Source of the DNA: an uncultured Dorea sp. | GTDB lineage: Bacteria > Bacillota > Clostridia > Lachnospirales > Lachnospiraceae | Assembly (NCBI GenBank): GCA_934307335.1 | Contig: CAKRCL010000040.1 | Coordinates: 1 to 16,308 of the forward strand | Length of the DNA: 16,308 bases | Reading direction: 5' to 3' | In this document: piece by piece, positions 1,608 to 16,308 of the stretch | How the letters are laid out: each line of letters starts with the position of its first letter | Numbering within the stretch: the first letter of the stretch is position 1 | The notes under the pieces: model-generated | The model's database searches: none | What the model was told of the DNA's origin: nothing | Seen by the model: the letters and a program-made list of their open reading frames with translations, nothing else | Position numbers and translations under genes: made by a program

Positions 1608-1688
1608 ATATTCAGGTTAATATTCAGATAAAGAATATAAAAAGTGATTTATCAGTGAGTAAAGATAAAGTTAAATAAAGAAATAACA

Positions 1689-1720
1689 GGAAAAAAGGCC
1701 TCTTAAGGGCTTTTTTTCCT
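1689..1720 (+). terminator. Intrinsic terminator of the EF-G gene
   Basis: Arms GGAAAAAAGGCC and GGCTTTTTTTCC form a 12-bp stem with one G-U pair and a 7-nt loop. The T-rich 3' arm doubles as the U-tract. It lies about 80 nt after the EF-G stop and just before the next promoter. Confidence 0.85.
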
Positions 1721-1730
1721 TGTGTAAAAG

Positions 1731-1739
1731 TGCTATAAT
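1731..1739 (+). promoter_or_regulatory. Extended -10 promoter of trkA-trkH
   Basis: TGCTATAAT is a perfect extended -10 element (TG-N-TATAAT). No good -35 box lies 16-18 bp upstream, where the sequence is the T-tract of the preceding terminator, but extended -10 promoters can work without one. The start of transcription would be near 1746, giving an untranslated leader of about 80 nt. Confidence 0.7.
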
Positions 1740-1769
1740 CTCTATGCCTTATATGGTTTTATCAGGTGG

Positions 1770-1782
1770 GAGTTTTAAACTC
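1770..1782. promoter_or_regulatory. Dyad GAGTTT-T-AAACTC in the trkA leader
   Basis: Perfect 6-bp inverted repeat around one central T, about 25 nt downstream of the predicted start of transcription. The loop is too short for an RNA hairpin with all six pairs, so a protein-binding operator is the likelier reading. Function is not shown. Confidence 0.3.
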
Positions 1783-1825
1783 AGCATGATACAAGTATAA
1801 AGAGAAATATAACGAGGGACAAAAA

Positions 1826-3184
1826 ATGAAAATAGTAATTATCGGCGACGGCAAGGTTGGTCATAAATTGACAACACAATTGTCAGAAGAAGATTATGAC
1901 GTTACCTTGATTGACCAGAATGCCGGAAAGCTGAAAGCAGCTTTGAACAATCTGGATATTTTCTGTATTAATGGAAATGGTGTAGATGCGGAAGTTCTGA
2001 AACAGGCAGATGTATCACATGTGGACATTGTGATAGCATGTACTTCTACAGATGAGATGAATATGATTAGTTGCCTGTTGGCAAAAAGACTTGGAGCAAA
2101 GCATACAATTGCACGAGTAAGAAATCCACTATATTATCGTCAGATGGAATTATTGAAAGAGGATCTTCGTCTGAGTATGGCGGTTAATCCGGAGCTTGCT
2201 GCTGCAAATGAGATTTCAAGAATGCTTCTTTTCCCGGAGGCTACTAAGGTAGAACCTTTCATGAAGGGAAGAGTAGAACTGGTAGAATTTCCGATTGCAG
2301 AGAATAGCCCAATCGTGGGACTGTCACTGGCTCAGATTAACAGTAAATATGAGTTTCAGATCCTTGTATGTGCAATTAAGCGAGGAGAGCAGGTTTATAT
2401 CCCAGATGGTAACTTTGTGATTGAAAAGGGAGATCGAATGCACGTTGTTGCATCCCATCAGAATCTGAAGACATTTTTCCGTGCACTTGGTCATAAGGAA
2501 GAAAAAGTGAAAAAGGTTATGATCTGTGGAGGCGGACATGTATGCTTTTATCTTGCAGTTCAATTACAGCAGGCTGGAATGCAGGTAAAGATTATCGAGC
2601 AGAATCAGGCAAGATGTGAAGAACTATGTGAATTGCTTCCGAAAGCGACTATTATTCATGGAGATGCAACAGATCAGGAGCTTTTACTTGAAGAAGGTCT
2701 GGAGAATGCAAATGCAATCGTTGCATTAACCGGAATGGACGAAGAAAATATTATGATGGCTCTATTTGCAAAAACAAGAGGAATTAAGAAGATTGTAGCA
2801 AAGGTGAATTCGGATACAAGAGCTCAGATGGTAGAGAGTCTTGGGATTGAAAGTACGGTTTCAGCTAAGAGTGCTACAGCAGATGCAATACTGGCATATG
2901 TAAAAGCAAGGATGAATTCATACAGCAGTGCGAATATTGAGACTATGTATCGCTTGTTGAACGGCAAGATTGTAGCACAAGAATACATTATTAATCAAGA
3001 ATGCGACTTCACGAATATCCCATTAAAAGATCTTCCGACAAAGTCAAATAACCTGATCGCATGTATCGGACGACATCGAAAAATTATTATTCCGAATGGT
3101 GATGATCATCTGGAAGTCGGCGACAGCGTCATTGTAATCGCGAAAGAGCACACGATCAATGATTTCAAGGATATACTGGCGTAG
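1826..3184 (+). CDS. trkA: TrkA: NAD(H)-binding regulatory subunit of Trk potassium uptake
   Basis: Cytoplasmic gating subunit that binds NAD(H)/ATP and controls the TrkH potassium channel-like subunit. The 452 residues form the duplicated RCK_N-RCK_C layout typical of TrkA. The first Rossmann unit starts at residue 1 (GDGKVG, residues 7-12, acidic D30 at the end of strand 2), and its RCK_C spans about 135-215. The second unit starts near residue 230, with its RCK_C about 365-450. The second nucleotide loop reads GGGHVC (235-240), so the last Gly of GxGxxG is Cys; nucleotide binding in this half may be altered. The start follows CGAGGGA about 8 nt upstream. trkH begins 14 nt after the stop, and its ribosome site GGGAG overlaps the trkA stop codon, so the two are co-transcribed and probably translationally coupled. 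Confidence 0.95.
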   Translation: MKIVIIGDGKVGHKLTTQLSEEDYDVTLIDQNAGKLKAALNNLDIFCINGNGVDAEVLKQADVSHVDIVIACTSTDEMNMISCLLAKRLGAKHTIARVRNPLYYRQMELLKEDLRLSMAVNPELAAANEISRMLLFPEATKVEPFMKGRVELVEFPIAENSPIVGLSLAQINSKYEFQILVCAIKRGEQVYIPDGNFVIEKGDRMHVVASHQNLKTFFRALGHKEEKVKKVMICGGGHVCFYLAVQLQQAGMQVKIIEQNQARCEELCELLPKATIIHGDATDQELLLEEGLENANAIVALTGMDEENIMMALFAKTRGIKKIVAKVNSDTRAQMVESLGIESTVSAKSATADAILAYVKARMNSYSSANIETMYRLLNGKIVAQEYIINQECDFTNIPLKDLPTKSNNLIACIGRHRKIIIPNGDDHLEVGDSVIVIAKEHTINDFKDILA

Positions 3185-3198
3185 GGAGTCTTAAGAAT

Positions 3199-4647
3199 AT
3201 GAATGGAAAAATGGTACGCTATATTGTAGGCCGGATGCTGGGGGTGGAGGCATTGCTCTTGCTTCTTCCAACATTTGTAGGTGTGCTATATGGCGAAGAA
3301 AAAGAAGCGCTGGCTTTTGTGATACCAGCTTTGATACTGGCATGTATTTTCATGATAGCAGGAAGAAAAAGACCAGAAGGTCAGGCAATTTACGGAAAAG
3401 AAGGTATGGTCGTTGTCGCCAGTGCATGGATTACATGGTCTTTGTTTGGTGCACTTCCGTTTACAATTTCAGGAAGTATTCCGAATTTTGTCGATGCTTT
3501 TTTTGAGACGGTGTCTGGATTTACAACAACCGGGTCATCGATTTTAAAAGATGTGGAAGCTCTGCCACAGTGCATGCTGTTCTGGAGAAGCTTTACACAC
3601 TGGGTCGGAGGTATGGGAGTGCTTGTATTCGTCTTGATGTTGACGAATCTGGATAAGAAGAATTCCATGTATCTGATGCGCGCGGAAGTTCCGGGACCAG
3701 AAAAGGATAAACTTGTTCCGAAGACAAAATCTACAGCAAGAATTTTGTATGGTATTTATTTTGGACTGACATTAATTCTGGTCATTTTGTTAATGCTTGG
3801 CGGAATGAACCTGTTTGACAGTCTGATCCATGCGTTTGGTTCTGCGGGAACAGGAGGATTTTCCAATTATGCGGACAGTGTGGGACATTTCCACAGTGCA
3901 TATATTGATTATGTGATTTCGATATTTATGATACTTTTTGGAATCAATTTTAACCTATATTTCTTTGTGCTTCTGGGAGATTATAAGGCATTTTGGAAAA
4001 ATGAAGAACTTCGGGTATATCTGGGAATTATAGCAACGGCAACGATTCTTATTACAGTGAATACTCTGAATCTGTATGATAGTATAGCGGATGCGTTCCG
4101 ATATGCGCTATTTCAGGTTGCGACAATTATTACTACGACTGGTTATGCGACTACGGATTTCAATCTGTGGCCAATGTTTTCACAATGTATCATCGTCCTA
4201 TTGATGATCATTGGAGCATGTGCATCTTCAACCGGTGGAGGTATTAAAGTATCAAGATTAATGATTGTAGTAAAAGGTGTAAAGCGTGAGATTAAACAGC
4301 TGGTACATCCAAAATCTGTGAATCTGATCCGCATAAATGGAAAGAAGATCAGTAATGAGACATTGCGCGGTGTATATGTATATCTTATGGCGTATGCACT
4401 ATTGGCGATTACATCAATTTTATTGATCTCTTTAGATAATCAGGATTTTGCCACAACATTTAGTTCTGTTATGGCGACATTGAATAATATCGGCCCGGGA
4501 CTTTCAGCAGTAGGACCGACTGGAAATTTTGCTGATTTTTCTATGTTGTCCAAGATTGTATTCTGTATAGATATGCTTGCGGGACGTTTGGAGATATTTC
4601 CGTTCCTCACATTCCTTACTATGTTTGCATGGAGAAGAAAGTTTTAA
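3199..4647 (+). CDS. trkH: TrkH: membrane channel subunit of Trk potassium uptake
   Basis: Integral membrane protein of the SKT (TrkH/KtrB) superfamily that carries K+ into the cell under control of TrkA. At 482 residues it is of normal family length. All four pore loops are visible: P1 SGFTTTGSS (about 106-114), P2 GTGGFS (about 216-221), P3 TTTGY (about 311-315) and P4 NIGPGLS (about 429-435). Each keeps the glycine of the selectivity filter. The ASSTGGGIK segment (about 341-349) matches the intramembrane gating loop before a cytoplasmic basic stretch. The start at 3199 sits 10 nt after GGGAG. It is the second gene of the trkA-trkH operon, which closes with a terminator directly downstream. 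Confidence 0.95.
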   Translation: MNGKMVRYIVGRMLGVEALLLLLPTFVGVLYGEEKEALAFVIPALILACIFMIAGRKRPEGQAIYGKEGMVVVASAWITWSLFGALPFTISGSIPNFVDAFFETVSGFTTTGSSILKDVEALPQCMLFWRSFTHWVGGMGVLVFVLMLTNLDKKNSMYLMRAEVPGPEKDKLVPKTKSTARILYGIYFGLTLILVILLMLGGMNLFDSLIHAFGSAGTGGFSNYADSVGHFHSAYIDYVISIFMILFGINFNLYFFVLLGDYKAFWKNEELRVYLGIIATATILITVNTLNLYDSIADAFRYALFQVATIITTTGYATTDFNLWPMFSQCIIVLLMIIGACASSTGGGIKVSRLMIVVKGVKREIKQLVHPKSVNLIRINGKKISNETLRGVYVYLMAYALLAITSILLISLDNQDFATTFSSVMATLNNIGPGLSAVGPTGNFADFSMLSKIVFCIDMLAGRLEIFPFLTFLTMFAWRRKF

Positions 4648-4658
4648 TCAATCTATGA

Positions 4659-4685
4659 CCGGGGTGTATATCGCCCTGGCTTTTT
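4659..4685 (+). terminator. Intrinsic terminator of trkA-trkH
   Basis: CCGGGGTG and CGCCCTGG pair as an 8-bp stem with two G-U pairs around a TATAT loop. The sequence CTTTTT follows. It starts 11 nt after the trkH stop. Confidence 0.75.
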
Positions 4686-4732
4686 GTAAATAAATGTATT
4701 CAAAAATGAAATAATCAGGAAAAGGAGACGCT

Positions 4733-6367
4733 ATGAAAAAGAAGACAAAAGGACTAGTTGTTCTGATTGCATTGTTGATTGCAGGGGGCTACTATTATGT
4801 AACAATTCCGGCAATCAATATTCATTCAACAGAAACCTGGGGAGCAATGCTATTTCTTATTGTGATTTTATTGCTTGTGAAGATTTGTTCTTATGGATTC
4901 AAGATACGCCCTGGATTTTCGCAATGGGATGAATTAAAAGAAAATAAAGTGATTCGTACGGGAATCGCATGTTTGGTTATATTAGGTGTGGTATATTTAC
5001 TTGGAAGTGTGCTTTCATCACCAATTATTAACGCTAAGAAATATCAGAAACTTATGAAAGTGGAGCAGGGAAATTTCACAGAAGATGTTGAAGAATTGTC
5101 TTTTGATAAAATTCCGCTTCTCGATAAAGATACGGCTGAACTTTTAGGAGACCGTAAGATGGGAAGTATGGTAGACATGGTATCCCAGTTTGAGGCAGAT
5201 AATATTTATTCACAGATTAACTATAATGATAATCCGGTTCGTGTGACACCGCTTCGATATGCAAGTATTATTAAGTGGTTCACGAACCGTTCCGATGGAA
5301 TTCCGGCATACATTCGAATTAATATGGCAACTCAGAATACGGAGCTTGTAAAGCTGGATCAGGGAATGAAATATGTCAACAGTGAGCATTTTAATCGAAA
5401 TATATACAGACACCTTCGATTTACACATCCGACATATATATATGGAGACTTGAGTTTTGAGATTGATGATGATGGTGTTCCTTACTGGATCGCACCTGTA
5501 AAAAAATACAATATCGGATTGTTCGGTGGTGAGACGATCGGGAAGGTTGTTATATGTAATGCTATCACAGGTGAGACGACAACATATAAAACAGAGGATG
5601 TTCCGGAATGGGTGGATCGTGTATACTCCGCAGATTTACTTGTAAATCTTTTTGATTATTATGGAACATTGAAGCATGGATTTTTTAACAGTGTGCTGAG
5701 TCAGAAAGACTGTCTGAAGACGACGGATGGATATAATTATCTGGCGCTGGATGATGATGTGTGGATGTATACAGGAGTGACTTCTGTAAATGGAGATCAG
5801 TCAAATGTCGGATTTGTATTGTCTAATCAGAGAACAATGGAGACAAAGTATTACGAATGTGAAGGGGCGACAGAGGCATCTGCAATGTCATCAGCAGAAG
5901 GTCAGGTCCAGAATTTAAAATATTCTGCGACATTTCCATTGTTATTAAACATTTCCGGGGAGCCGACTTATTTTATCGCATTAAAGGATGATGCTGGTCT
6001 GGTAAAAAAATATGCAATGGTAAATGTGCGAAAATATCAGATTGTGGCAATCGGTGACAGTGTGAGCCAATGTGAGGACAATTATCTGGAGTTACTTTTA
6101 AGTAATGGAGTTAAAGAAGAAGCAAAGGATGAGCGGGAGATCAAGACAATTACAGGAGAGATTACAAAGATTGCACAGGCAGTCATTGATGGGACTTCTC
6201 ATTATTATTTGATGATTTCTGGTTCGGAAGATATTTTTGATGTATCCGTAGTTGATTATATCGATGTAGTACGTTGCGAAGTAGGGCAGACTGTAACTAT
6301 AGAGTATAAAAAAGGCGAGAAAACGAATACAGTAGTGAGTTTAAAAAATACAGCGGTGGGTCTTTAA
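4733..6367 (+). CDS. Uncharacterised membrane-anchored protein with a large exported domain
   Basis: I cannot assign a function. The 544 residues start with three predicted membrane segments (about 7-27, 36-57 and 76-94), followed by about 450 mostly hydrophilic residues. With three segments and a short basic N-terminus (MKKKTK), the large domain is predicted to lie outside the cell. It contains an Asp-rich, strand-like stretch around DIDDDGVPYW-type sequence near residue 240-255. The C-terminal 80 residues (from about REIKTITGEITKI) have the alternating pattern and Gly spacing of an OB-like beta barrel; that fold is inference. A strong ribosome site (AAAAGGAGA) precedes the ATG. No convincing promoter was seen in the 47 bp after the trk terminator. 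Its stop codon overlaps that of the convergent CapA-like gene by 4 bp inside a shared terminator. Confidence 0.7.
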   Translation: MKKKTKGLVVLIALLIAGGYYYVTIPAINIHSTETWGAMLFLIVILLLVKICSYGFKIRPGFSQWDELKENKVIRTGIACLVILGVVYLLGSVLSSPIINAKKYQKLMKVEQGNFTEDVEELSFDKIPLLDKDTAELLGDRKMGSMVDMVSQFEADNIYSQINYNDNPVRVTPLRYASIIKWFTNRSDGIPAYIRINMATQNTELVKLDQGMKYVNSEHFNRNIYRHLRFTHPTYIYGDLSFEIDDDGVPYWIAPVKKYNIGLFGGETIGKVVICNAITGETTTYKTEDVPEWVDRVYSADLLVNLFDYYGTLKHGFFNSVLSQKDCLKTTDGYNYLALDDDVWMYTGVTSVNGDQSNVGFVLSNQRTMETKYYECEGATEASAMSSAEGQVQNLKYSATFPLLLNISGEPTYFIALKDDAGLVKKYAMVNVRKYQIVAIGDSVSQCEDNYLELLLSNGVKEEAKDEREIKTITGEITKIAQAVIDGTSHYYLMISGSEDIFDVSVVDYIDVVRCEVGQTVTIEYKKGEKTNTVVSLKNTAVGL

Positions 6368-6386
6368 AGACCCTCGCTGTATTTTT
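6344..6386. terminator. Bidirectional terminator spanning two overlapping gene ends
   Basis: AAAAATACAGCG (6344-6355) and CGCTGTATTTTT (6375-6386) are perfect 12-bp complements. Inside them lies the perfect palindrome GGGTCTTTAAAGACCC (6358-6373), with two unpaired bases on the left and one on the right. The A-tract on one side and T-tract on the other give a U-run in both directions. Both stop codons sit in the palindrome centre. Confidence 0.9.
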
Positions 6387-7557
6387 CTATCTTTTGCTTT
6401 ACGCGTTCTGCTTCATCACCGGATAACGGTGTCGGACAGTAATCATTTTTGCTGCTGGTTGAAGAAAGTGAACAAGGAATGATATTGATATTGTCATCTT
6501 GTGCGACATTTCCATCAGCATCAATGGTAAAAGTCTGTTGGAAAATCATTGTATCTTTGTCGGAAGGATTTTTATTTCCTCCGAAACAGAAATTACCAAG
6601 ACTGTAGGCAATATATTTTCCATTATACTTTTCAATGCCTTCCAGCACATGTGGGTGATGTCCGATAACAAGATCTGCTCCTTCATCAATCGCCAGATGA
6701 GCCAGAGTTTTCTGGGTGGCATTCGGTGTGTATTCCTTTTCGATGCCCCAGTGGAAATTGACGATAATAATCTGAGCACCGGCATCTTTCAAAGCCTGTA
6801 TATTTTCTTTCACTTGTGTTGATTTTTTCTCATGCTCTGCCAGTTCATAAATTCCTGTTAGTCCGACTTTGATTCCTTTGATATCTAGGACAGCAATATC
6901 TTCATATCCGAATGGAGTGATTCCGGCGTTAGAGAGATTTGTAAGTGTATCTTCCAGACTTTTGCTTCCGTAGTCTTTGCTGTGATTATTTGCAACATTG
7001 GCAGCTTCGACAGAACTTCCGGAAAGAATGGACGCATATTCAGCAGGAGCTTTAAAAGCAAAAGTTTTGTCTGCGCGATTTGTTTCGTCGGTCAAAGTAC
7101 CTTCAAAATTAACAATGGATAAATCATCGGCTTCCAGGATAGAACGGACATTTTTGAAGAAATAGTCAGCCCCATAATTATTGTAATAAGCATTCAAACT
7201 GGTAGACTGATCAAAATTTTCATCAGTTCCAAGTGTACAATCACCCATCGAACTAATTGTGATGGAAGTGGTGCTTTTTTCCTTACTGGAAGCTTTTTCT
7301 TTTTTATTAGAAGAAGTTTCAGAGATTTCTAGTTTTTCAGCGGTCTGTTTTGGTGTATTTTTAGCGGTTTCTTTAGCAGTGTTTTTATGAAGAAAATGAT
7401 GGATACCATAAATACCACCGAAAAGAATTAGACAGGCTATACAGAACATACCACCAAGCAGTAAAGCGCGTTTTTGTTTACGACGTCGGATTCGCCTTTT
7501 TCTGGCCTCTTCCCTTCGACGTTTTGCTGCTTTGATTCCTGAGTTATTTTCGCTCAT
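6364..7557 (-). CDS. CapA-family membrane-anchored metallophosphoesterase-like protein
   Basis: Member of the CapA / PGA_cap family, calcineurin-like phosphoesterase folds linked to poly-gamma-glutamate or other cell-surface polymer work; the substrate here is unknown. The 397 residues open with a very basic cytoplasmic tail (about 10-30), one membrane segment (about 31-53) and a Lys/Thr/Ser-rich linker (about 57-98). The catalytic-type domain follows outside the cell. Family motifs are clear: SMGDCTLG (103-110), NFEGTLTD (150-157), NVANNHSKDYG (187-197), NFHWGIE and IGHHPHVLEG. These supply the Asp, Asn and His residues that would bind metals. The start follows AAAGGAAAC. No capB or capC genes are near, so a capsule role is not supported by context. 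It converges on the upstream membrane protein gene with a 4-bp stop overlap. Confidence 0.88.
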   Translation of the reverse strand: MSENNSGIKAAKRRREEARKRRIRRRKQKRALLLGGMFCIACLILFGGIYGIHHFLHKNTAKETAKNTPKQTAEKLEISETSSNKKEKASSKEKSTTSITISSMGDCTLGTDENFDQSTSLNAYYNNYGADYFFKNVRSILEADDLSIVNFEGTLTDETNRADKTFAFKAPAEYASILSGSSVEAANVANNHSKDYGSKSLEDTLTNLSNAGITPFGYEDIAVLDIKGIKVGLTGIYELAEHEKKSTQVKENIQALKDAGAQIIIVNFHWGIEKEYTPNATQKTLAHLAIDEGADLVIGHHPHVLEGIEKYNGKYIAYSLGNFCFGGNKNPSDKDTMIFQQTFTIDADGNVAQDDNINIIPCSLSSTSSKNDYCPTPLSGDEAERVKQKIEKYSEGL

Positions 7558-7611
7558 AATTGTTTCCTTTTATATTTTAATCATAAAGTATTTTGTAATA
7601 GACATAAGAAC

Positions 7612-7649
7612 AGACAGCTCATCAAGAGATGAACTGTCTATGTTTTTTT
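7612..7649 (+). terminator. Terminator-like hairpin with plus-strand polarity between two minus-strand genes
   Basis: AGACAGCTCATC and GATGAACTGTCT pair over 12 bp (one G-U type mismatch) around loop AAGA. TTTTTTT at 7643-7649 follows on the plus strand. On the minus strand, where the flanking genes are read, the downstream sequence is only weakly T-rich. Confidence 0.6.
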
Positions 7650-7656
7650 CATACAT

Positions 7657-8079
7657 TTAATTCAAAAGAGTGCAGCCATCAAAATTTACGTCTTTTAATT
7701 CGGATTTGTCTGCGCTGATACTTACATAGAAATTGATATCACATTCGTTAGAGATTTTTTTCAGTCGCTCAATGAAATCAGGCATATTTTCAATAGAAAT
7801 ATCTGCGTGTTTTAAGATTCCGTCGATGAAAATGCATTCAATATCATGATTGGAGCTGTACATTCCATACAGGAATCCAATGTATTCATCTGTGTTTTTG
7901 ATGGAAGGAAAATCATCCATACAGATTGTACGAATGTCAAATGCAACACTTGCAGTATCGCGATGTGTTTTTTTGATAAATACGACATTTCCGTTACATT
8001 CTTTTGCTTGCTTGTTAGCCTGCTCGATCATTTGTTGTGTTTTTCCGCTGCCTTTAGGGCCAGTTAATAAATTTACCAT
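7657..8079 (-). CDS. Small P-loop ATP-binding protein of unknown role
   Basis: A 140-residue predicted NTPase. Walker A is GPKGSGKT at residues 7-14, directly after the first strand, and Walker B is ECIFIDG with Asp at about 86. The compact layout, with the P-loop at the extreme N-terminus and a short alpha/beta core, recalls the thymidine kinase / RecA-like fold. No lasso zinc site or nucleoside-binding motif is seen, so I do not call it a thymidine kinase. Short proteins of this kind in Clostridia are often given names such as 'twitching motility protein PilT'; nothing here supports motility. The start is well placed after AAAGGAGAG. The next gene in its direction is the CapA-like gene, 99 nt on, beyond a hairpin with poor polarity for this strand, so read-through is possible. 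Confidence 0.75.
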   Translation of the reverse strand: MVNLLTGPKGSGKTQQMIEQANKQAKECNGNVVFIKKTHRDTASVAFDIRTICMDDFPSIKNTDEYIGFLYGMYSSNHDIECIFIDGILKHADISIENMPDFIERLKKISNECDINFYVSISADKSELKDVNFDGCTLLN

Positions 8080-8328: not shown

Positions 8329-10458
8329 ATGGGAAATTTAAGTAAAGAAGAACTTATAAAAGCAAAAATACCAGGAGAAGATACCGGAATAGAGGTGAAA
8401 ACCGGTATTTGTGGATTTTGCGGTGGAGATTGTCTTTTGGATTATTACGTGAAAGATGGAAAGATTATAAAGACAGAGGGAAATTCTACTTTGCCGGGAA
8501 CCAATGGGAGAGTTTGTGTAAAAGGGGCAGCAATTAAGCAGGCACTTTATCATTCGGACCGGATTTTATATCCAATGAAACGAATCGGAGAACGAGGAGA
8601 AGGAAAATTTGAGCGTATAAGCTGGGAAGAGGCACTGGATACAATAGCAGAGCGGATGCAGAAGGTAAAAGAGGAATATGGACCGGAACAGACCATGTTT
8701 TATGTGGGACATCCAAAATGGTTCCGTCCTCAGATCACAGATTTTGTGAATAGATATGGGACACCGAATTATGGAACAGAATCCAGTACTTGTGCATATG
8801 CACTTATGATGGCGAATCAATGTAATTTTGGAGAAAATATTATGCTATTACCTCCGGATTTCGGGCGTTGTCGTACGTTGGTTGTATGGGGAGTGAATCC
8901 TTTGTATAGTAACTCTATAAAAGGAGGAGCAGGATTTTTGCACGCAGTGGATCGTGGGGCAAATGTAATCGTTATAGATCCAAAGTGTACACCGACAACG
9001 GAATATGCGACAGTACACCTGCGTCCGATCCCGGGAACAGATGGGGCATTAGCTCTTGGTATGGCGCGTGTGATCATTACAGAGAATCTGCATGACAGTG
9101 AATATATTGAAAAATATACATATGGATATGAAGAATATCGTGATTATGTTATGGAGTTTACTCCGGAAAAAGTAGAAAAAATTACCGGAGTACCAAAAGA
9201 TGAGATGATTCGAGCAGCAAGAATGATTGCAGCAGAAGGACCGACATCGATCATGATGTCTGCATCGCCGGTCGTACATAATTGGAACGGAGTGCAGAAT
9301 GGACGTGCAATTGGACTTTTGATGGCACTGACAGGGAATTTTGGAATGCCGGGAGGTTTTGCAGGTCCAGGACCACAAAGAGCAGTATTGAAAGATGCGT
9401 TTATGGGATGTAAGAAAGATCGTGAGCATCCGGAAAAAGGATTAAATTACGGAGAATTTCCAGCCTGGGATCGTCTGACATCCAGAGAACTCCAGGTAGA
9501 GAAAATTGCGGATTTTCTTCTTGGTAAAGGAAAATACCCAATCCGTAATCTTATTTCATTTGGCATGAATCATCATATGTGGCCAAGACCAGATCGGATT
9601 GAAGAAGGAATGAAGCAGGTGGAATTTTTCACATGCGCAGATATTTATATGAATGAGACTTGTAAATTTGCAGATATTTTGCTTCCGGTCTCATCAGGAC
9701 AAGAACGGGAACAGGTAGAACTTATTGGACCACAGACTGTGTATTATCAGCCGAAGATTATAGAAAATCAGGGAGAAACGAAAAATGATATGGAAATCCT
9801 GATTGAACTGGCAAAACGGCTGGGATTTGCAATGGGAGAGCCAGAATTTCATAGTTATGAAGAATATATGGAAGACCGTCTGAGTCCGACAGGAGTAACG
9901 TTGAAGGAATTAAAGGAAAACGATGGAATCATGCAGGCAAAGAAATTAATGCCGGCTCGGACATCGGAAGATATATTGAAGGTTCAGACACCAACAGGGA
10001 AGATAGAATTCGTTTCGACAATATTAAAGGGTTGTAAAAAAGAAGGACATGAAGGAATTCCGGCATATCATGATTTCAGGGAGAAATTGCCAATGAAGGA
10101 GTATCCGTTGATTCTTAGTACCGGAAGTAGAAAACCGCAGCTTTTCCATTCCAGAACCTATCGCTTACCATGGCTTGTAAATCTGGAAAAGTGTCCGGTG
10201 GTAGAGATTCATCCAGATGATGCAAAAGAATGTGGTATAGAGAATGGAGAGATTGTCAGACTTGAAACCCCGGTTGGAAAGATGGATATGGCAGCGGCAG
10301 TGAATTCTTCTTGCCTGAAAGGTGTAGTAAATGTTTATCATGCCACTGGAGATCAAGATATTAATCTACTGGTAGATGACAAATACATTGATCCAATTTC
10401 AGGATTTCCGGGATTCAAATCTTATTGTTGCAGAATCAGTAAAAAGGAGGAAGCTTAG
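8329..10458 (+). CDS. Cytoplasmic molybdopterin (or tungstopterin) oxidoreductase, DMSO-reductase family
   Basis: Catalytic subunit of the bis-MGD enzyme superfamily; the substrate is unknown. In the 709 residues a [4Fe-4S] site sits at C28-x2-C31-x3-C35-x27-C63, followed by Lys65 as in the formate dehydrogenase / nitrate reductase group. The predicted metal ligand is C155 in ESSTCAYA, so this is a Cys form, not a Sec form. Cofactor-binding blocks include VVWGVNP, the GTDGAL stretch and a C-terminal molydopterin-dinucleotide domain from about residue 580. No Tat signal is present, so the enzyme should stay in the cytoplasm. I chose ATG 8329 because GGAGG ends 5 nt before it; an in-frame TTG at 8317 would put the ribosome site inside the gene. 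The Fe-S partner begins 2 nt after the stop. Formate dehydrogenase, acetylene-hydratase-like or metalloid-oxyanion reductase activities all remain possible. Confidence 0.88.
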   Translation: MGNLSKEELIKAKIPGEDTGIEVKTGICGFCGGDCLLDYYVKDGKIIKTEGNSTLPGTNGRVCVKGAAIKQALYHSDRILYPMKRIGERGEGKFERISWEEALDTIAERMQKVKEEYGPEQTMFYVGHPKWFRPQITDFVNRYGTPNYGTESSTCAYALMMANQCNFGENIMLLPPDFGRCRTLVVWGVNPLYSNSIKGGAGFLHAVDRGANVIVIDPKCTPTTEYATVHLRPIPGTDGALALGMARVIITENLHDSEYIEKYTYGYEEYRDYVMEFTPEKVEKITGVPKDEMIRAARMIAAEGPTSIMMSASPVVHNWNGVQNGRAIGLLMALTGNFGMPGGFAGPGPQRAVLKDAFMGCKKDREHPEKGLNYGEFPAWDRLTSRELQVEKIADFLLGKGKYPIRNLISFGMNHHMWPRPDRIEEGMKQVEFFTCADIYMNETCKFADILLPVSSGQEREQVELIGPQTVYYQPKIIENQGETKNDMEILIELAKRLGFAMGEPEFHSYEEYMEDRLSPTGVTLKELKENDGIMQAKKLMPARTSEDILKVQTPTGKIEFVSTILKGCKKEGHEGIPAYHDFREKLPMKEYPLILSTGSRKPQLFHSRTYRLPWLVNLEKCPVVEIHPDDAKECGIENGEIVRLETPVGKMDMAAAVNSSCLKGVVNVYHATGDQDINLLVDDKYIDPISGFPGFKSYCCRISKKEEA

Positions 10459-10460
10459 TA

Positions 10461-10889
10461 ATGAGCAGAGTAGAATGTGATGAAGCGCGTTGTTCCGGCT
10501 GTTTGGCCTGTGTCGTTGCCTGTCTGGATCAGCATTATGATGCTACAGAGAAAAATGCGGTTTCGCCTAGAATTTATGAGATGAGAAAAAGAGGACATAG
10601 TGACCTTGAGACATATATTACAAGGAGCTGCCTTCATTGTGAAGATGCAGTGTGTCTAAAAGTGTGTGGATTTGGTGCGTTAAAAAGAGATGAGAGAGGT
10701 TTTGTAATACCTGTCAGAGAAAACTGTAAAGGATGCAGATTGTGTCAGAAAGCCTGTCCGCATGATGTGCCAAGATTTGATCAGGAGGGCAAAATCGTCA
10801 AGTGTGACGGTTGTTCGGTCAGAGTATCTATGGGAATGGAGCCGGCATGTGTGAGAGCCTGCAATACGGGAGCGTTGAAACAAGTGTAG
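10461..10889 (+). CDS. Ferredoxin-like electron-transfer subunit with four [4Fe-4S] sites
   Basis: Electron-transfer partner of the preceding oxidoreductase, of the DmsB/HycB/FdhB kind. Only 142 residues long, it still holds four complete cluster motifs: C11-x2-C14-x2-C17-x3-C21, C57-x2-C60-x4-C65-x3-C69, C89-x2-C92-x2-C95-x3-C99 and C115-x2-C118-x11-C130-x3-C134. DmsB-type subunits are usually longer, so this is a minimal version. It has no membrane segment, and no anchor subunit is encoded nearby. The pair is therefore predicted to be soluble and to exchange electrons with ferredoxin or another soluble carrier (inference). Its ribosome site AAGGAGG lies in the last codons of the upstream gene and only two bases separate the genes, so translation is likely coupled. 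Confidence 0.92.
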   Translation: MSRVECDEARCSGCLACVVACLDQHYDATEKNAVSPRIYEMRKRGHSDLETYITRSCLHCEDAVCLKVCGFGALKRDERGFVIPVRENCKGCRLCQKACPHDVPRFDQEGKIVKCDGCSVRVSMGMEPACVRACNTGALKQV

Positions 10890-10954
10890 TTGGGCAATAA
10901 AAGATAATCATATAGAAAATCATACAAGTAGAAGAAAATGACAGAGGGAAAGAC

Positions 10955-11497
10955 ATGAAAAATAAGGAAAAATTGAAAGATAGTGTATTGATCAAGATAA
11001 TTCTTATAGCTGCCATTGTGATTGTAGCATTTGTAATGAGATCCGTACTTGAAAATAAGCATGAAGAGATTAAGATAGACAAGCAGACAGCAGGAAAGAC
11101 AGTACGCGAGATGAATTATGCAAAATCGGTTCAGGAAGATGATTCAATCTTACAAGTGTTTAAAGAAAAATATTCAAGTGCAGAAATTTTGCTTGCTTGT
11201 AGAGAAGATGTGACAGATGATGGATTAGATGATTTGGTTGTAATCTGTAAGCTAGAAGAAGGAAATAGGACAATCGTTGTAACTGATAGTGGAGACAGCT
11301 TAAATTATAATTTCTCAGATCCGATTCCTGCTCCGATAGAGAATCAGAAAATACAATTTAAAAATATTGATAAGGAAGGCGAAATAGAATTTATTATAAC
11401 CGGAGAGAAAAAGGGAGCGGTAGGTTATGCCATCTATCGTATGATAGATGGCCAGCCAGTTGATCTTTTTGGAGAAGGAATGGAGGATTGCTGTTAA
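10955..11497 (+). CDS. saoC: SaoC-like Cys-Cys-COOH protein, membrane-anchored
   Basis: A 180-residue protein with a single N-terminal hydrophobic segment (about 11-30) after a basic start (MKNKEKLK). The rest is predicted to lie outside the membrane. It contains DVTDDGLDDLVVI (85-97), an acidic DxxDDGxDD loop of the type that can bind calcium, and ends FGEGMEDCC with Cys179-Cys180 as the last two residues. From memory this matches the family named Cys-Cys-COOH (seleno)protein SaoC, part of a proposed 'selenocysteine-assisted organometal' set in which one Cys may be Sec. Here both codons are Cys (TGC TGT), so no Sec is needed. A C-terminal Cys pair is also used by mercuric reductase to hand over Hg(II). 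The gene follows the Fe-S subunit by 65 bp without a clear promoter or terminator between, so it is probably in the same operon. Its stop overlaps that of the response regulator by 4 bp. Confidence 0.65.
   Translation: MKNKEKLKDSVLIKIILIAAIVIVAFVMRSVLENKHEEIKIDKQTAGKTVREMNYAKSVQEDDSILQVFKEKYSSAEILLACREDVTDDGLDDLVVICKLEEGNRTIVVTDSGDSLNYNFSDPIPAPIENQKIQFKNIDKEGEIEFIITGEKKGAVGYAIYRMIDGQPVDLFGEGMEDCC
11429..11452. repeat. Perfect 10-bp hairpin inside the 3' end of the saoC-like gene
   Basis: GCCATCTATC (11429-11438) and GATAGATGGC (11443-11452) are exact complements with a GTAT loop. It lies 42 bp before the saoC-like stop and the same distance beyond the stop of the convergent response regulator gene. 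A T-run (11466-11470) comes 13 nt later on the plus strand, too far for a classical terminator. It may act as a pause or RNA-stabilising element. Confidence 0.55.
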
Positions 11498-12189
11498 ATA
11501 CAGAATTTGTATCCTTTGCCCCAGACAGTACAGATATAAACAGGGTGAGAAGGATCATCTTCCAGTTTGTCACGTAATTTTTTGATATATACAAGAATGG
11601 TGCTGTCATCGCAGTTATCATTTTTCCAGACTCTGGAGAATAATTCTTGTTTCGAAAATATATGATCAGGATTTTCGATAAAGAGATAGAGGAGGGAGAA
11701 TTCCTTGGAAGTGAGGGATATCTCCTTTTCGTGTTTTAAAACGGTCTGAGAGTCCATTTGGAGGACAAATGGACCTTTTTTTATCTCTGAAGTAATCTCT
11801 TCGGAAATCGGTGTGTATTGATTTGTCCGTCTGACCATCGCGCGGATTTTGGATACCAGTACAGTTTTACTAAATGGTTTTGTGATGTAATCATCGGCAC
11901 CGAGTTCCAGACCTTTGACTTGGGCAGAATCTTCGCCGCGACCACTTAACAGGATAACAGGTGTATAATTCTGACTGCTTCGAATCATTTTTAGAAGTGA
12001 GAATCCATCTTGGTCTGGCATGATTATATCCAGTAAAATCAAATCAAATGTGTTGGATTTGAGAATGTTCAGAGCAAGAGGACCGTTATCTGCACAAGTA
12101 ACAGCAATATGCTCTTGTTTTAGCGTCATACTGACAGCTTTTAAAATAGAAGGTTCATCATCTATAATAAGAACCGATATATCTGGCAT
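11494..12189 (-). CDS. OmpR-family response regulator
   Basis: DNA-binding response regulator of 231 residues. The receiver domain (about 3-115) has the acidic pair at D10-D11, phosphoacceptor D54 in LLDIIMPDQDG, the switch residue S82 and the conserved Lys104 in TKPFS. A linker leads to a winged-helix DNA-binding domain (about 135-231) with the typical LTSKEFSLLYLF and VYIKKLRDKLE segments and the closing WGKGYKF hairpin. It is read from a strong promoter in the gap shared with the divergent histidine kinase gene, its likely partner. The gene ends by overlapping the saoC-like gene tail-to-tail by 4 bp. No canonical terminator follows it, and its transcript may run antisense into saoC. Target genes are unknown; the neighbouring operons are the natural candidates. 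Confidence 0.93.
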   Translation of the reverse strand: MPDISVLIIDDEPSILKAVSMTLKQEHIAVTCADNGPLALNILKSNTFDLILLDIIMPDQDGFSLLKMIRSSQNYTPVILLSGRGEDSAQVKGLELGADDYITKPFSKTVLVSKIRAMVRRTNQYTPISEEITSEIKKGPFVLQMDSQTVLKHEKEISLTSKEFSLLYLFIENPDHIFSKQELFSRVWKNDNCDDSTILVYIKKLRDKLEDDPSHPVYICTVWGKGYKFCI

Positions 12190-12246
12190 TTGATAAATAC
12201 CTGCCTTTCTATTGTAATTATAAAAAAAACATATTAAGATAAATTT

Positions 12247-12275
12247 ATTATATCTGTGAAAAAATTTAAAGTCAA
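12247..12275 (-). promoter_or_regulatory. Promoter of the response regulator gene
   Basis: On the minus strand TTGACT (12270-12275) and TATAAT (12247-12252) are separated by exactly 17 bp. The start of transcription would be near 12240, giving a leader of about 50 nt. A weaker plus-strand candidate for the kinase gene, TTGTAA (12212-12217) and TAAGAT (12235-12240) with a 17-bp spacer, sits back-to-back with it. Confidence 0.7.
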
Positions 12276-12301
12276 CTATAAGAAAATGAGATGAGAAAAT
12301 A

Positions 12302-13936
12302 ATGAATAATAAAAAGAAGGATTTGTTTATTTTTGTAGTTGGTGCGGTATTATTGTTGGCAAGTGCAATATTATGTTACCGTACAGTGAGAGATGCAATT
12401 GTTAATAATGAAAAAGAGAGCATTCAGAATATTGCAGAAGTTAGTTCGCATAGTTTGAAAGCAACGCTTCAAGGAAAAAGTAATCTTGTCTATGCAGCTT
12501 TATCCGGAGATATGGCGAGTGAAGAAAGTATCAAAACAAGCATGCTGAAGATAGGTGAAAAAGGAAAATATATAAGCTTGGATGATATTGGCATAATACA
12601 AGACTGGGAAGAAAAAGCCTGTAAAGAAGCAGGGAAAAAACCGGGACAGGTAATAGCGGGACCAATTAAAAAGACTGAAAATGGTGACTATGTATTATAC
12701 ATGACAAAGGCTGTTTATATGGATCGAAGTATTGCCGGTTATGTGCAGATTGAATTGAACCTGGACGAGATTTATGAAACAGAACAGGATTTGTCAAATC
12801 TGAAAGTAGGGAATCATGGCTATTGTATCGTGAAAGACGCAGATGGAGTAACGATTATGTCAGGGCCTAAAAGGGGGAGTGATAATTTTTCTTTTTTAGA
12901 AGATGATAAGTCGGGATGTGAAGTTGTCAGCTCTTATGAAGTAGAAGGTGGAACAACAAAAAAGACACAAAAATTACTGGCATATAATACAGTTGATTTT
13001 AATGGAGTTCCGTTCGTATTATGTGTAATAGAAGATTATGATGATATTACTGCACCGATTATGAAAATAGCTTTTTATTTATCTTTATTCGCGGTATTGT
13101 TGCTTATATGGCTTGGTATTTTCGGATATCGAATTTTACAACAACAGAAAGAAGAGGAGAAGTTAAAACTGGAATTGTTACATGAAAAAGAATTGAATGA
13201 AGCAAATGAAGCAATAAAGAATCAGGAAAATCTTATGCAGAAATACAATCATTCTAAGACTATGGTATTTTTGGCAGGTGCACTTGCACATGAGTTTAAC
13301 AATCTCATGACTCCGATTGTATTGTATAGTGAATTATTATCAGATAATGATAAGGTTGTACAAGAGATGCCAGAAGAAGTTTACGAATTAAATATGTCAG
13401 CAAAACGATGTGAGGAGTTAGCCGGACAGCTTTTAGATTATAGCAGACAAGGAAGAGCAGAGAGAGTATTATCAGAGTATAATGCAACATTTGCAGTAGA
13501 GAGCAGTGTTAGTATTGTTAGCCGGTTGTTCCCTGACAATATAAAATTTGAGACATCTGTGTGCAGTACGCCATATTATGTGCGTGGACAAATAGGGGCA
13601 TTGAATCAGATTATTTTGAATTTGGTGACCAATGCAATCTATGCAATTGGAGATAAAAATGGATATGTAAAGCTTCAGTTTGGACTGAGTGTGGATGATA
13701 AGAATACGGTTAGGTTAGTGATAGAAGATAATGGATATGGAATCCCTAAAGATATACGCAAGCATATATTTGATTCCTTTTTTACAACGAAGAAGGCAGG
13801 AGAAGGTACAGGGATTGGTCTTACTGTTGTAAAGCGTATGGTAGAAGAACATGGTGGATGGATACAGGTGCAGAGTGAAGAGGAAAAAGGAACAACATTT
13901 ATTATGAATTTTCCAAGAGTAGAAGATTCTGAATAA
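12302..13936 (+). CDS. Membrane sensor histidine kinase with extracytoplasmic Cache-type sensor
   Basis: Sensor kinase of 544 residues. A first membrane segment (about 8-27) and a second (about 253-277) enclose some 225 extracytoplasmic residues. That region has the look of a double Cache domain, including the GYVQIELNLDEIY and HGYCIVKDADG stretches. No HAMP domain follows; a charged coiled coil (about 280-318) leads to the kinase core. The phosphoacceptor is H330 in LAHEFNNLMTPI, an NtrB-like H-box. The ATPase domain has the N-box (NLVTNAIYAI, about 440-449), DNGYGI (about 476-481), FDSFFTTKK and GTGIGLTVV. The start at 12302 is the only one possible, since an in-frame stop lies just upstream; its ribosome site (GAGATGAG) is weak. 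It is divergent from the OmpR-type regulator gene across 112 bp and is the likely partner. Confidence 0.92.
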   Translation: MNNKKKDLFIFVVGAVLLLASAILCYRTVRDAIVNNEKESIQNIAEVSSHSLKATLQGKSNLVYAALSGDMASEESIKTSMLKIGEKGKYISLDDIGIIQDWEEKACKEAGKKPGQVIAGPIKKTENGDYVLYMTKAVYMDRSIAGYVQIELNLDEIYETEQDLSNLKVGNHGYCIVKDADGVTIMSGPKRGSDNFSFLEDDKSGCEVVSSYEVEGGTTKKTQKLLAYNTVDFNGVPFVLCVIEDYDDITAPIMKIAFYLSLFAVLLLIWLGIFGYRILQQQKEEEKLKLELLHEKELNEANEAIKNQENLMQKYNHSKTMVFLAGALAHEFNNLMTPIVLYSELLSDNDKVVQEMPEEVYELNMSAKRCEELAGQLLDYSRQGRAERVLSEYNATFAVESSVSIVSRLFPDNIKFETSVCSTPYYVRGQIGALNQIILNLVTNAIYAIGDKNGYVKLQFGLSVDDKNTVRLVIEDNGYGIPKDIRKHIFDSFFTTKKAGEGTGIGLTVVKRMVEEHGGWIQVQSEEEKGTTFIMNFPRVEDSE

Positions 13937-13951
13937 TAGTTTATTACTTAA

Positions 13952-13985
13952 AAGGAGCAGCCACAATTGCGGCTGCTCCTTCGTG
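13952..13985. terminator. Hairpin terminator between convergent kinase and lipoprotein genes
   Basis: AAGGAGCAGCC (13952-13962) and GGCTGCTCCTT (13971-13981) pair perfectly over 11 bp around an 8-nt loop. On the minus strand the stem is followed by TTTTAAG, making it a good terminator for the lipoprotein gene. On the plus strand no T-run follows, so it is weaker for the kinase gene. Confidence 0.75.
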
Positions 13986-14007
13986 AATGCCTGTTTAAAA
14001 GCATATT

Positions 14008-15288
14008 TTATTCATATGCCTGACGATCTTTCAGGTCTTTATTTAAGTAAGATGTAGCTGTCTTGGAGATATCTACTGCTTCATCATCGGAGATATCATC
14101 AATCTTCTTAGCTTCGTTGTACCAGTCTTCGAATGTCATACCAAGTGGGAACTTGTCATCAACATTCTTTTTGATAAATTCATCAAAATCATCAACACCA
14201 GCATCTTTAGAAATATCAGTTGTCATGAATTTACTTACGTCACTGACACGAGGAATTTCCTCTTCCGGAATCTGTGGATACTGTGTGTAGTAGTTCTCAA
14301 AGTTTTCAATGTTCTTTTCAGAGAAGTGCCATGTAAGTGTACGTCCCTCAGCAACGGTCTTCATATAGATCGTACGAAGAGCAACATAAGGATCTACATC
14401 AAATCCATCTGCGAACATCATTGCAGCATTGTATGGATGTGTGTACATGTATTCAAGAGCCATCTCATGAGCATATACAAGACGTCTTGCAAGCTCTGGG
14501 TGATTCTCTTTGAAATCGTTAGACATAGCATAAATACAGCAAAGTCCCCATGTATCAGCAGTAGCGTCAGAGTCAACATTAGCTCCGCCCCAGCCGATTC
14601 CGAGAATATGTCCAAATCCTTCGAACTCAGCGATGGAAGCATAAGGGTCGCAGCATGTGAAAGCATCAATCTGTCCGGCTTTCAGTGCGAACATAGCATC
14701 CTGAGATCCCATGTCTACGATGTTGTAACTGGAAGCATCAGCTGGGATTCCAAGCTTTTTGGACCATGTTAAAAATTCAGGATCGATTTCAGGTTCCGCG
14801 GTCATAGAAATTGTTTTGCCGACTAACTGGGAAGGATCTGTAATGTCGTTACTTGCTACGAGATAACGTGATCCACCCATGTGGTTCGCAGCAGCCATTG
14901 AGAATGGAGCACCTTGGTTTACTGCACGAATCGCACCTTCGATACCCGTATATCCAACATCCATGGCACCGCTTGTGAGTGCTTTCAATGTCTCACCGGA
15001 TTTTGTTACATTTACATTCAGTCCTAAAGCTTTGTAAATACCGGCTTTCTCACCAATGATAGCACCGACCATGTGGTCACAGTTGAAGTATCCCATCTCG
15101 ATGGTATAATTCTTATCCTCCTCAGATAATTCGCCAAAATCAAATTTTTTGGCTGCTTCTTCTGGATTATATCCTGTTGCTTCTACGTCTTTCGTGGCTT
15201 GATTGTCTTTACTACTATCGTGACATGCAGTTACAGTAGGGACAAGGAGTGCCATAACAAGAAGTACAGATACAATTCTTTTTTTCAT
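14008..15288 (-). CDS. ABC-type substrate-binding lipoprotein (NrtA/SsuA/ThiY-like fold) with vicinal cysteine pairs, possibly SaoB-like
   Basis: Secreted ligand-binding lipoprotein of 426 residues. The signal peptide ends in lipobox VTAC, so Cys22 is lipid-modified and anchors the protein outside the membrane. The body follows the NMT1/NrtA-like plan, with GEKAGIYKALGLNVNV, ALTSGAMDVGYTGIEGAI and the QDAMFALKAGQIDAF segment. Unusually for the family it has Cys70 in FNCDHMVG and two adjacent Cys pairs, Cys212-Cys213 (TCCDP) and Cys250-Cys251 (GLCCIY). Those residues fall in loops that commonly line the cleft of such proteins, so they may bind a thiophilic ligand (inference). From memory this resembles the family named substrate-binding (seleno)protein SaoB, but I am not sure. 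No ATPase or permease gene is seen in the window. Start follows GGAGGGAG. A divergent LysR gene probably controls it. Confidence 0.85.
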   Translation of the reverse strand: MKKRIVSVLLVMALLVPTVTACHDSSKDNQATKDVEATGYNPEEAAKKFDFGELSEEDKNYTIEMGYFNCDHMVGAIIGEKAGIYKALGLNVNVTKSGETLKALTSGAMDVGYTGIEGAIRAVNQGAPFSMAAANHMGGSRYLVASNDITDPSQLVGKTISMTAEPEIDPEFLTWSKKLGIPADASSYNIVDMGSQDAMFALKAGQIDAFTCCDPYASIAEFEGFGHILGIGWGGANVDSDATADTWGLCCIYAMSNDFKENHPELARRLVYAHEMALEYMYTHPYNAAMMFADGFDVDPYVALRTIYMKTVAEGRTLTWHFSEKNIENFENYYTQYPQIPEEEIPRVSDVSKFMTTDISKDAGVDDFDEFIKKNVDDKFPLGMTFEDWYNEAKKIDDISDDEAVDISKTATSYLNKDLKDRQAYE

Positions 15289-15303
15289 AGTTCTCCCTCC
15301 AAA

Positions 15304-15335
15304 TATTAATAATTGTTAATAAATATGTGATTATA
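15304..15335 (-). promoter_or_regulatory. Promoter region and dyad upstream of the lipoprotein gene
   Basis: On the minus strand TATAAT lies at 15330-15335 with no good -35 box, which suits activator dependence. TATTAA-N6-TTAATA (15304-15321) lies just downstream of the predicted start of transcription. AATATTAAYAA recurs in direct orientation at 15302-15312, 15374-15384 and 15414-15424. Confidence 0.5.
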
Positions 15336-15461
15336 ATAGCAGATACAAAATGAAATAGAAAGGCATATAAATGAATATTAACAATTTTGATAAAGAAAAG
15401 GGAACCTATTAGAAATATTAATAAAGTATAGAAAAATTCAATAAAACTATGAGAACAATCA

Positions 15462-15492
15462 ATTCGACATTTTATACGAATAGATTTAAAAT
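15462..15492 (+). promoter_or_regulatory. LysR-gene promoter overlapped by a LysR-type dyad
   Basis: TCGACA (15464-15469), a 17-bp spacer and TAAAAT (15487-15492) form a good promoter about 50 bp before the LysR start. The dyad ATTCG-N10-CGAAT (15462-15481) covers the -35 box. LysR regulators often bind such sites to repress their own gene, so this is a candidate autoregulatory site. Confidence 0.55.
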
Positions 15493-15541
15493 ATAGTTAC
15501 AATTTTAAGCATGACATGAGGGAAAGAGGAAAAAGAAAATA

Positions 15542-16308
15542 ATGAGATTGGATTACATAAAAAGTTTTATTAATGTCGTCAACTGTAAGAGCTTTTCTGT
15601 TGCTGCAAAAAAAGCATTTGTCTCACAGCCGACGATCAGTACTCACATCAAGCAACTGGAAGCGGAATTGGGAGTCCAGCTTTTGGTTAGATCAACAAAA
15701 GATGTGATATTGTCAGAAGAGGGAGTTCTGTTTTATCCATATGCAGTCAGACTTCTTGAAACGGAAAATGAGGCACTGGCACATTTGAACAAGACAGAAG
15801 CAAAGGTAAAAGGAACTGTAACGATTGCTACTTCATCAGTTCCTGGAAATTATATTCTTCCGAGGATTTTGAAACAGACAAGACTTAAATATCCTGAGAT
15901 TGATTATCGTATGCTGGAGGGAGACAGTAGTCAGGTAATTCAGTCGGTCTTAAGATTTGAAGCAGATCTTGGAATAGGGAGTATCCGTACTAATCATGAG
16001 AAATGTATGTGTATGCCGCTTCTAAAAGATCAGATTGTACTTGCAACACCGAATACAGAAGAATATCGGAGCCTGAATGGGGTATTTCCGATTGATAAGC
16101 TGAAGAAAGAGACATTTGTTATACGGGAATCAGGCAGTGGAACAAAGATTGCATATGAAAGTATTGAGAAAGCGCTGAATCTGCATGCAAAGCCGTTGAA
16201 GATTGCCATGCAGGCAGAATCTTCGGATCTGGTCCGAAGAAGTGTAGAAGAAGGAATGGGAGTTGCATTTGTAAGTAGTCTGGCAATTCAAGATTCTCTG
16301 GCATTGGG
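15542..16308 (+). CDS. LysR-family transcriptional regulator (3' end outside window)
   Basis: LysR-type regulator; 255 codons are present and the frame is still open at the window end. The winged helix-turn-helix spans about residues 1-60 (FSVAAKKAFVSQPTISTHIKQLEAELG is split here as FSVAAKKAF and SQPTISTHIKQLE). A substrate-binding-like effector domain starts near 90 with VTIATSSVPGNYILPRIL. A second lobe includes FVIRESGSGT, typical of the CysL/CysB side of the family. From memory, the STKDV and SSVPGNYILP stretches resemble regulators described as selenium-metabolism-associated LysR proteins; that subfamily call is tentative. The start follows AAGAGGA. The gene is divergent from the lipoprotein gene across 253 bp, the usual layout for a LysR regulator and its target. 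Confidence 0.9.
   Translation, partial: MRLDYIKSFINVVNCKSFSVAAKKAFVSQPTISTHIKQLEAELGVQLLVRSTKDVILSEEGVLFYPYAVRLLETENEALAHLNKTEAKVKGTVTIATSSVPGNYILPRILKQTRLKYPEIDYRMLEGDSSQVIQSVLRFEADLGIGSIRTNHEKCMCMPLLKDQIVLATPNTEEYRSLNGVFPIDKLKKETFVIRESGSGTKIAYESIEKALNLHAKPLKIAMQAESSDLVRRSVEEGMGVAFVSSLAIQDSLAL

Follow-up and report, generated by a model that had tools for sequence, protein, structure and literature searches.

The DNA stretch analysed here (the window; 16,308 nucleotides of contig CAKRCL010000040.1 from an uncultured Dorea sp.) very likely holds the left part of an ordinary locus of the selenocysteine-assisted organometal (SAO) system, of the kind that mixes selenocysteine (Sec) and cysteine proteins, with the remaining genes lying directly after lysR and with a dedicated sensor pair inside the locus. 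The SAO system was reportedly described by Haft and Gwadz in 2023, and the window is an SAO locus of this known set with Cys forms of SaoC and SaoX. The features described here lie between 8329 and 16308, where the end of the window falls inside lysR. An earlier note on this DNA had linked three of its genes to selenium or to the SAO set, and had proposed an SAO variant in all-cysteine form. The link to the SAO set was right and the interpretation was supported in part, while the all-cysteine reading is very probably wrong, because the window stops inside lysR, before the sao genes that bear UGA in a sister genome (G207). A cut window can thus make a mixed Sec/Cys system appear all-cysteine.

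All three genes singled out earlier encode proteins that score above the cut-offs of curated NCBIfam models. The protein noted for its Cys-Cys-COOH ending does end in this way and reached 180.5 bits with the SaoC model NF040734, for a cut-off of 80. The substrate-binding protein encoded at 14008-15288 is SaoX, with 486 bits against a cut-off of 300 (NF040735). It carries the two vicinal Cys pairs that had been pointed out, FTCCDP (C212-C213) and GLCCIY (C250-C251), and its N-terminal C22, conserved in 27 of 31 sequences, fits the proposed lipoprotein; its suggested likeness to SaoB did not stand, the SaoB model (NF040727) being absent among the six families listed for it at E 0.1. The LysR regulator was correctly taken for a selenium-associated type, with 265.4 bits against the cut-off of 250 of NF040786 (LysR_Sec_metab) despite its truncation, and the full orthologue of a related genome, G207, scored 293.8 bits. 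When gene order was compared among relatives, the succession of saoC (+), response regulator (-), histidine kinase (+), saoX (-) and lysR (+) was found again in L003, L013, L018, L020 and L022; L001 has it too, interrupted by a small open reading frame (ORF) and a double-cubane reductase gene. Since this order recurs across loci and the two intergenic regions match those of G207 at 79% and 81% identity, the arrangement is not due to chance.

The right half of the locus was read in G207. A survey of 397 genomes taken from the family to which G001 belongs (Extibacter muris, the source of locus L001) found SaoC in seven, one of which, G207, is syntenic with the window from the gene of EF-G (96% identity) through lysR. 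The genes expected elsewhere in a genome with this arrangement are indeed there: lysR of G207 is followed by saoP, saoT, saoE, saoB, saoA, saoL and saoD, every one above its NCBIfam cut-off (bits/cut-off: SaoP 404.6/295, SaoT 105.5/65, SaoE 565.2/325, SaoB 300.5/140, SaoA 445.8/360, SaoL 218.7/140 and SaoD 190.3/169). In-frame UGA occurs at the motif positions VI-U-AEF in SaoP, CA-U-C in SaoT and GSC-U-NV in SaoL, while SaoB, SaoC and SaoX have the Cys forms DCC, EDCC and FTCCDP. SelB, the component of the Sec machinery that was searched, scored 383 bits in G207 (cut-off 242.25) and was above cut-off in 37 of the 39 SAO genomes searched. Judging from G207, the window's own genome most likely continues after lysR with the same seven genes, three of which (saoP, saoT and saoL) would encode Sec proteins, while SaoB would have Cys like SaoC and SaoX. 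PMC13188914 describes the SAO system with SaoT and SaoP among the listed selenoproteins, and G207 agrees with it, having Sec at the CU motif of SaoL as well as in SaoT and SaoP.

Whether the organism of the window could have a genuine all-cysteine variant was weighed with the Sec/Cys states of 54 loci, made up of the window, G207, G338 and 51 loci retrieved with an alignment of 34 SaoC sequences. The sao genes visible in the window are all of Cys type without UGA, as had been stated, and the six complete genes of 8329-15288 are free of in-frame stops. The C-terminus of SaoC is CC in 42 of the 54 loci and CU in 12; such Cys forms have already been named by NCBI, for instance in [Clostridium] scindens. 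A CC tail says little on the rest of the set, because a further sao gene contains UGA in 36 of these 42 loci. In four of the remaining six (the window, L043, L050 and L051), several of the six scored sao genes could not be found. The last two, L046 (a contig of 7,987 bp) and L049, have Cys throughout SaoB, SaoC, SaoP, SaoT and SaoX, with no SaoL found, and are candidates for a true all-cysteine set. For the window, on the other hand, the closest relative found, G207 (80-97% identity from the oxidoreductase gene to lysR), has UGA in three sao genes, and G338 and L001 share the Cys states of SaoB, SaoC and SaoX and yet have UGA in saoP and saoT, L001 also in saoL. SaoP carries Sec in 37 of the 43 loci in which it could be read and Cys in the other six; in 11 further loci it was missing or truncated. 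A genuine all-cysteine system in this organism is consequently highly improbable. In the same survey, SaoB had Sec in 21 loci and Cys in 23, and was absent or cut in 10. For SaoL there were 24 Sec states and one Cys call (L023), probably spurious, with 29 loci giving no motif. L014, L021 and L037 have two saoX copies each, and the second residue of the CCDP motif is encoded by UGA in the two copies of L014 and in one of those of L021.

The two-component system that had been noticed between the sao genes belongs to this branch of SAO loci. When 52 loci were compared, 15 of them, the window included, shared a kinase cluster, and 14, again with the window, a regulator cluster (c10). Among the three candidates scored in each genome, a full-length orthologue of the kinase (E <1e-100, 40-80% identity) was found in five of the seven SaoC-positive genomes of the family and in none of the 390 SaoC-negative ones (Fisher 2.6e-10, kinship uncorrected), and all five are located at the SAO locus. 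The pair therefore looks like a dedicated SAO sensor system. The kinase gave a weak PF02743 (dCache) match of 34.3 bits, below the Pfam cut-off of 45. Its position C107 is conserved as Cys in 15 of the 16 SAO kinases, several of which are closely related, and in none of four control kinases; this control is thin, since only two of the four (G069 and G280) matched over the sensor region. C175 was rejected as an SAO signature, being present in 16/16 SAO kinases and also in three of the four controls. As a tentative proposal for the SAO loci of Dorea/Extibacter-type gut anaerobes, to which we give somewhat less than an even chance, the kinase, perhaps through C107 of its outer domain, would sense an organometal or the freed metal and, with its OmpR-type partner, would induce uptake and cleavage alongside LysR. 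If true, gut anaerobes would handle organometals by a route that is inducible, depends on selenium and differs from mer, and kinase and regulator would offer a handle on the SAO substrate, any inducer of the set becoming a candidate. The tie between a sensor pair and SAO looks like the one new point of this analysis: the accessible parts of PMC13188914 and PMC10418091 make no mention of an SAO two-component system, the 2023 founding paper lying outside this check. A separate observation concerns P0095, where one ORF fuses SaoC to the response regulator that is on the opposite strand in the window; it is probably an assembly chimera.

Regarding the working of the set, the substrate, the direction of flow and the regulation that we infer are as follows. 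SaoX and SaoB would use thiols to capture a soft metal or organometal cation on the outer side of the membrane, SaoP and SaoA would import it, and the MerB-like SaoL would break the bond between carbon and metal. By thiol/selenol exchange, the metal might then be passed on through SaoT, SaoD and the Cys-Cys end of SaoC and exported by SaoE, the whole set being presumably controlled by LysR and the dedicated kinase and regulator. Structure prediction gave for SaoX a model of mean predicted local distance difference test score (pLDDT) 86.0, which matches SsuA/TauA-type binding proteins. C70, H72, M73, M109, H136, C213, C251 and H274 are invariant in 31/31 aligned SaoX sequences; in the model, C251 is within a strand and H274 within a helix, and C70, H136 and C213 are found where strands end or in loops between strand and helix. 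Some of these soft ligands presumably line the ligand cleft, an assumption made from the fold class rather than from coordinates. The SaoC model (mean pLDDT 80.7) consists of a long N-terminal helix (11-42), which could be a membrane anchor, a low-confidence linker and a strand-rich domain. Its structure matches were propeller-type entries with weak Foldseek E-values (FG-GAP/beta-propeller-blade comparison), and no chain was matched by a PDB sequence search at E 10.

The SsuA/TauA/NrtA fold of SaoX also invites another explanation, in which the locus would import a sulfonate or a nitrate-type substrate and the idea of a soft metal would come from misread NCBIfam names; SaoP of G207 likewise scores, below cut-off, with SsuC, TauC and NtrB. 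The SsuA and TauA models remain far below cut-off for SaoX (83.2 of 163.5 and 30.3 of 304.25 bits), and the invariant Cys, His and Met set, by which SaoX differs from these binding proteins, fits a soft metal better, as do the MerB-like protein of G207 and its SaoE, which is related to a Cu/Zn efflux family. A sulfonate or nitrate role is accordingly quite improbable, and the organometal reading is retained.

In the mer operon, MerB is an organomercurial lyase, MerA has a C-terminal Cys pair, and import is by MerT/MerP. The SAO set resembles it in the relation of SaoL of G207 to MerB (PRK13239 gave 42.5 bits, for a cut-off of 193) and in the vicinal Cys pair at the end of SaoC, MerA nearly ending in the same way. 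The two differ in import, SAO using ATP-binding cassette (ABC) transport by SaoX/B/P/A where mer uses MerT/MerP, and in the Sec that replaces Cys in several SAO proteins. MerA was not among the reported families, although no search aimed at it was made. If the SAO idea is true, some gut anaerobes would have a route of organometal uptake and cleavage unlike mer, of relevance to organic mercury or similar compounds in the gut. The staphylococcal saoABC operon shares only the name, SaoC of that operon being DNA-binding by the title of PMC9223772, and no relation is claimed.

Several observations weigh against the reading of the window as part of a mixed, sensor-equipped organometal locus. The saoP, saoT and saoL genes and their UGA codons were read in G207 and not in the window's own genome, and the hairpins after the three UGA codons of G207 were at best weakly better than shuffled sequences (z -0.57, -2.10 and -1.52). 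SelB remained below cut-off in two of the 39 SAO genomes, and Sec is not obligatory, since the L046 and L049 sets are all Cys. The SaoL motif could be read in only 25 of the 54 loci; in the other 29 it was missing or truncated, or was too distant to be found, and the lyase step may not be universal among SAO loci. Two SaoC-positive genomes, G010 and G367, gave no kinase match at E 1e-40. Finally, the accessible parts of PMC13188914 and PMC10418091 report no tested function of a sao gene.

In addition to the two-component system inside the locus, the window differs from the described SAO set in the molybdenum/tungsten (Mo/W) oxidoreductase and iron-sulfur (FeS) protein pair upstream of saoC, of which PMC13188914 makes no mention in its accessible part (the 2023 founding paper again lying outside the check). 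The oxidoreductase noted earlier beside the sao genes is real and has the direction of saoC; the pair is a possible accessory of SAO. The enzyme was below cut-off in each of the 25 shown of 27 matched NCBIfam families, including Fdh-alpha (318.8 of 666.25), PhsA (286.5 of 694) and DmsA/YnfE (248.8 of 777.7), and its best PDB relatives are thiosulfate reductase 2vpw and acetylene hydratase 2e7z. We take the Cys of its ESSTCAY motif to be the metal-ligand position. The FeS protein is a probable subunit of the oxidoreductase.

It was then considered whether both proteins are a functional part of SAO, e.g. for a redox step on the released metal, a metalloid or the thiol pool. The oxidoreductase gene, the FeS gene and saoC are contiguous and in the same direction in the window and in G207, with short gaps before saoC (65 bp and 33 bp respectively). 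An enzyme with PF00384 lies within 10 kb of saoC in five of the 39 SAO genomes (G207, G133, G004, G008 and G424), for an expectation of 0.69 by random placement (112 PF00384 matches, 39 genomes, 10 kb either side; Poisson P 0.0007, or 0.005 with the close pair G133/G008 counted once). Partial pieces of such enzymes in L046, L048 and L050 were excluded from this count, and that of G001, about 12 kb from saoC and shortly after saoD, is beyond the distance counted. Relatives at E 1e-60 were found in 5/7 SaoC-positive versus 20/390 SaoC-negative genomes, with two candidates scored per genome. On the opposite side, this proximity test was chosen only after the window had been seen, and the SAO-adjacent enzymes do not form one clade; a single dedicated SAO Mo enzyme was rejected, these enzymes being of several subfamilies scattered in the tree. 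In 11 of 12 regions around relatives of the window's enzyme (of 32 match places listed), the only sao-like genes were weak matches (25-32%) to SaoA-type ATPase, regulator or LysR. Moreover, G338 and G277 have the relative away from the SAO locus, and 6/39 SAO genomes are without PF00384 at E 1e-15. A functional role of the pair in SAO is hence rather doubtful. Several of the regions around the relatives adjoin molybdenum-cofactor genes, and at the G001 locus (L063) of Extibacter muris, a short distance beyond saoD, cofactor genes of the mobA, moeA and mobB types come after an oxidoreductase-FeS pair.

Table 1. Genes and intergenic regions at 8329-16308 of the window, with identity to the G207 counterparts.
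Feature	Coordinates	Strand	Identity to G207	Remarks
Mo/W bis-(pyranopterin guanine dinucleotide) oxidoreductase	8329..10458	+	85% (protein at same place)	709 aa from ATG; alternative TTG start 8317 in ORF list; Pfam PF00384/PF01568/PF04879
4Fe-4S ferredoxin-type protein (FeS)	10461..10889	+	80%	PF13247, 73.1 bits
saoC, Cys-Cys-COOH form	10955..11497	+	81%	180 aa, C-terminus MEDCC, stop TAA; NF040734
OmpR-family response regulator	11494..12189	-	89%	PF00072 and PF00486
Regulator-kinase intergenic region, divergent	12190..12301		81%	
Sensor histidine kinase	12302..13936	+	80%	PF02518 and PF00512 above cut-off; weak dCache match
saoX, substrate-binding protein, CC/CC form	14008..15288	-	96%	426 aa; NF040735; SsuA/TauA-type fold
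saoX-lysR intergenic region, divergent	15289..15541		79%	
Selenium-metabolism-associated LysR, cut by window end	15542..16308	+	97%	NF040786 on 255 aa

The flank at 3-8079 encodes EF-G (start cut off), TrkA, TrkH, proteins of 544 and 140 aa and a PGA_cap protein, in an order identical to that of G207; the 544-aa and 140-aa proteins had no Pfam match at 1e-4. No family reached its gathering score in an Rfam scan of the window. Promoter-like sites (42 for 27.4 expected) and terminator-like sites (5 for 4.5 expected) were not used as evidence.

Genes of double-cubane-cluster reductases (cluster c6), which the SAO loci of the window and G207 do not have, were seen in the SAO neighbourhood of 24 of 51 loci, with about 0.77 expected in 39 genomes by random placement. 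Examples are L001 (14759-15919) and L036 (8646-9851); NF040772 was found in the two members tested, and in some loci these genes form a divergent pair beside saoC.

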